Assembly (NCBI GenBank): GCA_002162695.1
Contig: MAAM01000005.1
Location: forward strand, 124,001-188,000
Length of the DNA: 64,000 nt
Reading direction: 5' to 3'
Source of the DNA: Cycloclasticus sp. 46_120_T64
GTDB lineage: Bacteria; Pseudomonadota; Gammaproteobacteria; Methylococcales; Cycloclasticaceae
Shown here: positions 60,066 through 62,454 of the stretch, one piece after another
Layout: the number at the start of each line of letters is the position of its first letter
How positions within the stretch are numbered: the stretch's first letter is position 1
Program-made: the position numbers and the translations under genes
The notes under the pieces: model-generated
Seen by the model: the letters and a program-made list of their open reading frames with translations, nothing else
What the model was told of the DNA's origin: nothing
Database searches by the model: none

Positions 60066-60141
60066 AGTCGTGTAATTTTATAAAACGGGGGAAAGATGGT
60101 AGTCATGAGTGGACTTGAGGCACCGACCCCGGCATTATGAA
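60066..60141. repeat. Left attachment repeat: duplicated 3' half of tRNA-Met
   Basis: 60097-60141 repeats 62378-62422, the 3' end of the tRNA-Met gene from CCA to the anticodon loop, with two mismatches in 45 bases (GG for AC at 60119-60120). Weaker similarity continues outward (AGTCGTGTAATTT at 60066 against AGTCGCGTAATTT at 62346). Such a partial tRNA copy on the far side of an island is the usual scar of integration at a tRNA 3' end. Confidence 0.88.
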
Positions 60142-60164
60142 AGCGCAACTTATTAATCACAAAC

Positions 60165-60196
60165 CATTGTTTTTATTGAATAAAATAAAAACAATG
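60165..60196. other. 13-bp perfect inverted repeat at the island edge
   Basis: CATTGTTTTTATT (60165-60177) and AATAAAAACAATG (60184-60196), six-base loop. It lies 23 bp inside the left repeat. It may act as a terminator for the rhodanese gene or as an element end. The rest of 60197-60421 shows no gene; a GCATAAC motif occurs at 60220-60226. Confidence 0.5.
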
Positions 60197-60421
60197 ACTT
60201 ACCTGCGCAATCTAACTAAGCATAACAAATCATCATTAATCGCGTAAAAATCACGCAACCAAAGCCTGAGAAAATAGATGTGTTATATTTATCTAAATAA
60301 CAACTAATGCCTTATTAGCCAATAACAGATCCATGTTTAGCTTTTCATATGACAACACATGGAAGTTCTACCCACCTATATCTATTTAATACGTGGAACA
60401 ATGCTTCCGCTTATTAACACT

Positions 60422-60428
60422 GTTATGC
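60422..60428 (+). other. attC-like core site (R') at the start of cassette 1
   Basis: GTTATGC, a near match to the GTTRRRY core of integron attC sites. It pairs with ACATAAC (60989-60995) except at the outermost base, as expected for the two ends of one cassette, and it is an exact reverse complement of GCATAAC at 60220-60226. Confidence 0.5.
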
Positions 60429-60474
60429 GTTTTGGGAATAATTATATGCATGTAATTCCCATAGGAATTAAACA

Positions 60475-60981
60475 TTGAAAATTACTGAATTTTTAGCCAT
60501 ATACGCTGCATTGCTATCTACAATAGTATTTTTTTGGAATATGCGTAGAGCTATACCACAATACAAAGTCGAGTTAATATTTGGCGTTGATGAAATTGAT
60601 GGTAAACATGTATCAGGTGCATATATCTCGGTTAAAAACCCGTCGCTACACACAGTCCATTTATCAAATATATCAATTCTTTATCCCTACAGGAAAACAA
60701 GCATAATTGAGTTAGTCACACATACTCTGAAATTTAGACGTTTGCCAATTTCTGTTGATTGGGCTCATTCAAGTCTTTCAAACTTTGACATTGATGACGG
60801 ATGCCCTTTTGCCTTAGAGGCAGGTAAGTCACACGATATTCTTTTCCCAGAAAGCGCCTTAGAAAAAGTATTTAAAGATAGCAGCGAGAGAGTTATAAAA
60901 GTTTCAGTACAAGACCAACTGTGGAGAACCAAATATTCTAGTAAATTTGAGTACCCTAAAGTTGCAGAAAACAAGGCGTGA
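60475..60981 (+). CDS. Cassette gene 1: membrane-anchored protein, unknown
   Basis: 168 residues from TTG 60475. One N-terminal membrane helix (ITEFLAIYAALLSTIVFFW) with a basic MRR behind it, then a soluble, probably beta-rich domain (VSGAYISVKNPSLHTVHLSNISILYP) of no family I know. The RR after the helix suggests a cytoplasmic domain. The stop is eight bases before an attC-like R'' motif, and the start is 46 bases after a GTTATGC core, the layout of an integron cassette. AT-rich compared with the chromosome. Confidence 0.65.
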   Translation: MKITEFLAIYAALLSTIVFFWNMRRAIPQYKVELIFGVDEIDGKHVSGAYISVKNPSLHTVHLSNISILYPYRKTSIIELVTHTLKFRRLPISVDWAHSSLSNFDIDDGCPFALEAGKSHDILFPESALEKVFKDSSERVIKVSVQDQLWRTKYSSKFEYPKVAENKA

Positions 60982-60988
60982 ATATCAC

Positions 60989-61020
60989 ACATAACAAATC
61001 ATTGCACTTGACCGTTATGT
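60989..61020 (+). repeat. Short attC-like site between cassettes 1 and 2
   Basis: ACATAAC (60989-60995) and GTTATGT (61014-61020) are exact reverse complements with 18 bases between. CATAACAAATCA is also found at 60221-60232. At 32 bp it is shorter than usual attC sites (about 57 bp or more), so the centre may be deleted. Confidence 0.55.
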
Positions 61021-61038
61021 TTCACCTAAGTATCAACT

Positions 61039-61674
61039 ATGAGTCATAAAATTTATATTGTCACAAAAGACAAATATTCGGGTCATCAAAGGACTCTTGG
61101 ATTCTTTAGGTTTCAGAATCAGGATTTATATTATGATTTTGGGATGTTGAATGGTAGCCATAATTCTTATCATAAGGATGGTTCACAGTGGAGGACAAGC
61201 CTTGCCTCAGAAGGGAGAGCAAAAAAGGAAAGTGAGCATTATCCATTGGCAAAATTTGTCGGTTTATTTAACCTTGGTACTGCATGTATTTCAAAAAATA
61301 TAGTTCCTAAACTACCAAAAGCTAAAAAGAAATATTTCAATAAATACGAAACATACGAAATAGATTTGGAATTTTTTCCAAGTGATCAAATAAATATAGT
61401 TTCTGAGTTAATTGAGCCAGAATATGAAATACCATTCCCTGAAAGTGAGAAATATTATCCACCAGAAGCCGTTGTTGAGGTTTTTAAATACAATAAGCCA
61501 TGGTTAATACTCACCATTCTTGGTCATGAACATAACCTATTAATTGTCCCCAACGGTAAAACGACTATTGTAAATCATTACAACGAAAGGTTTACTGCAA
61601 ACAAGAAAGGTCAGTCGTATTCTTCTGAAGCATATTCAGGTAAGGCTTTTGACATGTATAGCAAAGAAACATAA
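61039..61674 (+). CDS. Cassette gene 2: unknown protein
   Basis: 211 residues, soluble, rich in Tyr, Lys and Glu, with no signal or membrane segment. The first half has short beta-like stretches (RTLGFFRFQNQDLYYDFGML; HNSYHKDGSQWRTSLASEG). I recall nothing like it. The ATG is 18 bases after the GTTATGT core, and the TAA stop lies inside the ACATAAC motif of the next attC, a typical integron-cassette layout. Confidence 0.65.
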   Translation: MSHKIYIVTKDKYSGHQRTLGFFRFQNQDLYYDFGMLNGSHNSYHKDGSQWRTSLASEGRAKKESEHYPLAKFVGLFNLGTACISKNIVPKLPKAKKKYFNKYETYEIDLEFFPSDQINIVSELIEPEYEIPFPESEKYYPPEAVVEVFKYNKPWLILTILGHEHNLLIVPNGKTTIVNHYNERFTANKKGQSYSSEAYSGKAFDMYSKET

Positions 61675-61726
61675 CAAGAACCTTAAACGGAAAAAATACA
61701 GTTGGCTGTTTATGTAAGCGTTAGGC
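61669..61726 (+). repeat. attC-like site after cassette 2
   Basis: 58 bp from ACATAAC (61669-61675) to GTTAGGC (61720-61726); GTTAGGC is a perfect GTTRRRY core. The inner CTTAAAC and GTTTATGTAAG give imperfect arms. The length equals the short class of attC. ACATAAC is not complementary to GTTAGGC but is exactly complementary to GTTATGT at 61014-61020, as the circular form of cassette 2 requires. Confidence 0.65.
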
Positions 61727-61867: not shown

Positions 61868-62344
61868 ATAAACAGGGCTATTCAAAATACAGGTTGTCGA
61901 GATCAAGAAATGTGTCAACTGAAATGGTCTGAGTACCAAGATGGTTTATTTGTTCTTTCTGGTGATAGAACAAAGAATGGAGAAGAAAGAATAGTACCGT
62001 TAAATAGCGTTTCTCGAAACCTAACCCACTCTTTACCGAGAAATAATAAATATGTCTTTGCTAATAAACGAGGCAAAACATTTCAACGCATTATGAGCAC
62101 GGCGTGGAAGACATCGAGACGAAAAGCCGACTTAATTCAATGTCGAGTGCATGACTTACGTCATACATTTGGGAGAAGACTTAGATCAGCAGGTGTTAGT
62201 TTGGAAGATAGAGAGGATTTATTAGGTCATAAATCTAATCGAATCACTACACACTACTCAAGAGCAGAAATTAATAACTTAATTGACGCTGTTGAGAAGA
62301 TTGTAGAAAACAAACCCGAACACAAGTTTTTACGTGTCATTTGA
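61868..62344 (+). pseudogene. Truncated tyrosine recombinase (island integrase remnant)
   Basis: 158 codons after an in-frame TAA at 61865-61867; the first ATG is at 61910. The catalytic domain is nearly whole: NTGCRDQEMCQLKW with the first Arg (before the ATG), HDLRHTFGRRLRSAGV (His and second Arg), LLGHKSNRITTHYSRAE (His and the Tyr nucleophile). The whole N-terminal DNA-binding part (some 150-200 residues) is absent, so it is probably inactive. It ends 33 bases before the tRNA 3' end, the normal place for such an integrase. It looks phage- or island-like rather than IntI-like. Confidence 0.85.
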
Positions 62345-62345
62345 A

Positions 62346-62422
62346 AGTCGCGTAATTTGAAATGATAGGGCTCAAAGTGGTAGTCATGAGTGGACTTGAA
62401 CCACCGACCCCGGCATTATGAA
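62346..62422. repeat. Right attachment repeat overlapping tRNA-Met
   Basis: Direct-repeat partner of 60066-60141. The part 62378-62422 is inside the intact tRNA gene (CCA end to anticodon loop). Confidence 0.85.
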
Positions 62423-62454
62423 TGCCGTGCTCTAACCAGCTGAGCTACATGACC
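62378..62454 (-). tRNA. tRNA-Met (anticodon CAT)
   Basis: 77 bases on the minus strand with encoded CCA. Acceptor GGTCATG pairs with CATGACT; D arm GCTC-AGCTGGTTA-GAGC; anticodon arm CGGCA-TTCATAA-TGCCG with CAT; T arm GGTGG-TTCAAGT-CCACT. The first pair is G-T, unlike initiator tRNA, and the anticodon stem lacks three G-C pairs in a row, so this is an elongator type. A CAT anticodon may also belong to tRNA-Ile2 after lysidine modification; the body looks more like tRNA-Met. Confidence 0.95.

Follow-up and report, generated by a model that had tools for sequence, protein, structure and literature searches.

Gene cassettes behind an orphan attI in a small tRNA-Met island of Cycloclasticus: a likely case of filling in trans by an integron integrase encoded elsewhere

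Two small genes in the marine bacterium Cycloclasticus sp. 46_120_T64 run in the same direction between integron-like core motifs inside a tRNA-targeted island, with no integron integrase gene beside them, which raises the question of what this array is and how its genes could have come to be there. The usual picture of integrons is one of a single integrase, a single attI and a single array. Within the window, by which we mean the whole 64-kb stretch of DNA analysed here, the core motifs were found where the original prediction had placed them, namely GTTATGC at 60422-60428, ACATAAC and GTTATGT at 60989-60995 and 61014-61020, and ACATAAC and GTTAGGC at 61669-61675 and 61720-61726. That prediction had read all three as attC-type cores, and this held for 60989-61020 and 61669-61726 but not for GTTATGC at 60422, which is the end of an attI. 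It was correct in describing cassettes that lack a local integron integrase and lie inside a tRNA island; its description of an attC cluster without integrase held for the missing intI only, as the array is not a bare attC cluster but is headed by a true attI. From sequence comparison, we consider it likely that the locus is a two-cassette array on an orphan attI in a small tRNA-Met island, and that an IntI from a different locus filled it in trans.

The evidence for the attI came from the block of about 100 bp that is closed by the GTTATGC core at 60422, a point absent from the original prediction. When the region was compared with related genomes, 60329-60430 proved to recur, and a dedicated attI search then gave 45 matches in 15 of 18 Cycloclasticus genomes. 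Five genomes have a copy at 8-14 bp from the intI start; about 40 others are separate from intI, most of them immediately 3' of a host gene in the same orientation. Some 40 aligned copies all ran from ATCCATG to the core GTTA, and their flanks were unrelated. Because the block stands next to intI in five genomes and keeps constant ends between unrelated flanks, it is the attI of the genus (type A), and the window contains a copy of it at 60329-60422 (plus strand), with the G of the core G^TT as its last base, ahead of the first cassette and with no adjoining intI. The only integrase sequence in the window is the tyrosine integrase remnant of the island. The IntI proteins beside type A attI form one group with 77-90% identity. 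A related attI of the same layout (type B) belongs to a sister IntI group and is likewise dispersed, with 26 matches in 13 genomes, four of them beside intI.

Several further attI sequences were noted during these searches. Behind the HI0933-like gene of one genome (L203, G013:C161), a type B-like attI is broken by a short tandem repeat, and other species have type A at this place. An attI in G012 (C1:319306-319581, L120) is interrupted by an insert of 175 bp whose ends, GGCAGCCGAC...GTCGGCTGCC, form inverted repeats, and a similar palindromic sequence occurs in L135. In Ca. Electronema, Ca. Electrothrix and a Zixibacteria MAG (L158, L159 and L162), only the last 21-25 attI bases (TTCCGCTTATTAATACTGTTA) matched, with no attC matches nearby, and these short matches may reflect either chance or a wider attI core.

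The tRNA-targeted island proposed by the original prediction is real, since the tRNA-Met gene, a truncated tRNA direct repeat and a tyrosine integrase remnant are all present. The tRNA-Met (CAT) gene at 62378-62454 (minus strand) is the attachment site, and a truncated copy of its 3' part and flank at 60066-60144 (minus strand) forms the attL-like left end. The direct repeat pairs 60066-60144 with 62346-62425, the 3' part of the tRNA gene, at 83% over 81 bp, and the tRNA 3' repeat was also found in L040 and L042. The integrase remnant at 61885-62344 (plus strand) covers residues 189-338 of a 339-aa tyrosine recombinase, its N-terminal half being missing (74% identity to the L042 integrase; Pfam Phage_integrase, E 1.6e-17), and the intact 339-aa enzyme occupies the same island position in G005 (L042). 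With its broken integrase, the island of the window measures 2.3 kb.

Comparison with other tRNA-Met islands showed that the island attI is conserved across species with other cassettes behind it. A left-end block at 60202-60328 (plus strand) is conserved in the islands of G004 (L041), G005 (L042) and G011 (L127), with 84.9% identity to L041 over 126 bp. The G004 island has this same block (85%) followed by attI, and the two sequences part at the core, beyond which G004 carries eight attC in one direction. Copies of attI were also found in islands of G005, G008 and G014, and no attC was seen behind the attI of L042. The sharing of left block and attI among islands with differing cassettes indicated that the attI belongs to the island family, while the cassettes vary.

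We infer the following route for the array. The attI of the window is one of the scattered copies of type A attI, a site that adjoins intI in relatives; an IntI from another locus would recombine the attC of free circular cassettes with this orphan attI in trans. Each cassette would enter at the G^TT core, immediately after attI, and the most recent arrival would therefore come first; the cassettes would presumably be expressed from the upstream host gene or island.

Orphan attI at other chromosomal loci bear on this route. Cassettes bounded by attC stand behind orphan attI at many loci, and a hand count placed 26 of 32 distinct orphan attI loci behind a host gene co-oriented with the cassettes, where one half was expected. 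Orthologous orphan attI were found behind an HI0933-like gene (G001, G014 and G017), a metZ-like gene (G001, G012 and G017), a ThiF/MoeB-like gene (G015 and G017) and an arsJ-like gene (G001 and G014). At the arsJ-like locus (L107 and L108), flank and attI are about 96% identical between the two genomes, both without intI, and the sequences part just behind the core (GTTAGC), with other cassettes beyond. This locus carries intI in G003 (L124), and the recB locus reads recB-intI-attI in G011 versus recB-attI in G004. The presence of intI in G003 and G011 and its absence at the same loci in relatives indicated that intI disappeared in place at these two loci while attI remained. As the gene-attI flank is common to both intI-less arsJ-like genomes, their cassettes appear to have been gained or cut out after the loss of intI, a change for which IntI from elsewhere would be needed. 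This post-loss change is our main comparative argument for action in trans, and it suggests that attC-attI recombination in trans occurs at orphan sites; exchange of the array by homologous recombination may instead account for the change at the arsJ-like site. For the HI0933-like locus, comparison with the empty site showed broken downstream synteny and did not reveal the route by which attI arrived. A tyrosine recombinase of 423 aa (25% identity to IntI) is the product of the first cassette after attI at L104 (1959-3230, minus strand; G001:C79), and an attC follows this cassette.

The loss of intI in place at the recB and arsJ-like loci also favours a different history for the window, in which the island once had a complete intI-attI integron, the cassettes were inserted in cis and intI was later deleted, leaving a relic array. 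Remnants of intI beside 3 of 34 orphan attI, with a further apparent one at L228, point the same way, and the truncated island integrase and the reduced first attC of the window (described below) fit such decay. However, no trace of intI was found in 60145-60328, and the block is conserved in other intI-less islands of the family. Cassettes at the orthologous intI-less sites L107 and L108 changed after intI loss, and the same island in this genome, G004 and G014 carries different first cassettes with no intI in any of the three. We regard local decay as the less probable history, though one that retains some weight. It is far more doubtful that IntI placed the cassettes at non-attI sites (attG), which would make the array merely integron-like: attG insertion is published for class 1 IntI, as cited in PMC12444791, but the site ahead of cassette 1 is a full member of the attI family and not a chance GTT, and the attI alignment contradicts this reading.

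A second lineage bears on the origin of the orphan copies. In the Pseudomonadales MAG JARGPR01 (G406), the stretches read contain a single type A intI, 79% identical to that of Cycloclasticus; the MAG also has about 14 type A attI copies (L221-L234), several of them 92-99% alike and most behind different host genes. This high identity argues that attI sites multiply too, beyond mere loss of intI. Three contigs of this MAG start or end within about 50 bp of attI. An ORF-less element of about 110 bp, with ends GTTAGTCGGCGC...GCGCCGACTAAC, lies directly behind attI at four sites (L226, L223, L231 and L234) and recurs inside L222, L232 and L227. We somewhat favour the wider view of a distributed integron, in which one IntI would serve many free-standing chromosomal attI platforms behind co-oriented host genes or in islands, each platform having its own short exchangeable array and the attI copies themselves multiplying.

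For the attC sites, a covariance model was built from 23 attC of other Cycloclasticus cassette arrays, leaving out the window; 42 attC had been collected, but an ungapped model of all 42 combined two L' registers, and the set was therefore restricted to the 23 in the first one. In a search of the 64-kb window with filters off, this genus-built model called both sites named by the original prediction. The top match was attC2 at 61669-61726 (plus strand; 34.8 bits, E 6.3e-8) and the second was attC1 at 60989-61020 (plus strand; 17.5 bits, E 0.014), with the third-best match at E 0.64. Across the 2.2-Mb genome attC2 ranked second, and all other matches with E<0.05 sit in the integron arrays of C3 and C14, two contigs that each end within such an array. 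In an Rfam search of the window there was no attC match, the tRNA alone standing above the gathering score. Short cores are common, TAACAA-N-GCGTTA occurring 32 times in the genome versus 15 times for the reversed control, but an accidental origin of the motifs, which the original prediction had already thought unlikely, is contradicted by the covariance match (E 6e-8) and by sites lying behind attI and at the ends of both genes, and is hardly credible. The stretch 60221-60428 (GCATAAC...GTTATGC) was considered as a 208-bp attC and rejected, as it contains the attI block ending at the core.

The two sites differ in quality. attC2 has the canonical 58-bp layout with one extrahelical base, its R'', L'', L' and R' lying at the 3' end of the gene on the same strand as in an integron gene cassette, and the predicted fold of its bottom strand is weak (MFE -3.9 kcal/mol, z -0.5); 45 candidate attC sites from other loci, a set selected for energy, gave MFE values of -8.5 to -34.6. 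attC1 is a degenerate site of 32 bp in which R'' (ACATAAC), the 5' half of an attC and R' (GTTATGT) remain while the centre and L' are missing. Its low score reflects the lack of an inner L''/L' stem between an R'' and an R' that do align. By eye, the first 22 bases resemble the 5' half of a normal attC, and the presence of this half together with the absence of L' and centre makes attC1 probably a deletion derivative. Its bottom strand is predicted to form only a short hairpin, and the site is unlikely to be a normal recombination substrate.

Cassette 1 (60423-61014, plus strand; core GTTATGC) extends from the attI core to that of attC1 and carries a gene at 60475-60981 (plus strand) for 168 aa, with a TTG start and one N-terminal membrane helix by eye. 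Cassette 2 (61015-61720, plus strand) carries a gene at 61039-61674 (plus strand) for 211 aa, and its core GTTATGT is exactly complementary to its own R'' ACATAAC. The complementarity between R'' and core that the original prediction expected was thereby borne out at 7 of 7 positions in cassette 2 and 6 of 7 in cassette 1. The 168-aa product belongs to no Pfam or PADLOC family and has no NCBIfam family near its cut-off. Homologues without flanking attC would have spoken against cassettes; the only outside homologue found for the cassette 1 gene, at 46% identity on the Vibrio alginolyticus plasmid pMBL287, starts directly behind a 126-bp attC. The 211-aa product had no homologue in 369 genomes of the class, plasmids or PDB sequences and no PADLOC match. 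Viral contigs contained neither a relative of the 168-aa product nor an exact attI 21-mer.

A search for intI elsewhere in this genome, which the original prediction had proposed, found an intact but distant intI on C3 and a short remnant on C4. The C3 IntI shares 46-49% identity with types A and B, and its attI is unrelated, while type A intI is represented only by a 106-bp, 71% remnant upstream of the attI copy on C4. A complete integron of another IntI type lies at C3:110222-113410 and C14:306665-316873, and these two contig ends look as if assembly had split a single cassette array between them. Filling in trans is weakened as a reading by the weak fold of attC2, the degenerate attC1, the distance of the sole intact IntI here from type A and the lack of attC in L042. 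With type A intI reduced to a remnant, the C3 IntI distant and its attI unrelated, attC1 deleted and the island integrase truncated, the array of the window is probably frozen in this genome.

Cassettes lacking intI have been described before, and so have their mobilisation in trans, attG sites and delta-attI cassettes. In particular, cassettes without a neighbouring intI are expected to be mobilised by IntI acting in trans, and decay of intI is common in Xanthomonas (PMC12444791). The literature searched, in which subscription journals were thinly covered, contained no account of Cycloclasticus integrons or of a dispersed family of orphan attI platforms. If orphan attI copies work as platforms, cassettes could be placed behind many host genes at once. 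Cassettes would also ride on tRNA islands, integron cargo would reach mobile islands without intI, and the reading of CALINs would change. The locus also raises the testable question of IntI action in trans on dispersed attI and of how attI sites spread.

Among known systems, tRNA-targeted genomic islands share with this locus the truncated tRNA repeat and the tyrosine integrase beside the tRNA, whereas here an attI with its cassette array makes up the cargo. Insertion at attG (Loot et al. 2024, cited in PMC12444791) likewise brings cassettes outside the home integron by IntI in trans, but its target, as cited there, is a short genomic motif, while the target here is attI. Delta-attI-type cassettes and attI1-aadB-attI1 arrays provide extra attI-derived sites away from the intI-linked attI, with recombination by IntI1 shown (PMC12901181); both sit in the arrays of mobile class 1 integrons, in contrast to the free-standing platforms 3' of host genes described here. 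CALINs resemble the locus in having attC-bounded cassettes without adjoining intI, and with two attC, one of them degenerate, and no intI nearby, it falls within their definition of at least two attC. CALINs are, however, defined by attC alone, whereas in the present arrays a full attI copy comes first, and such copies are scattered over many loci within a single genome. The chromosomal (sedentary) integrons of Vibrio and Xanthomonas, for example, likewise have IntI, attI, attC and small cassette genes without assigned function, but they have one attI beside intI and one main array in place of many attI sites per genome.
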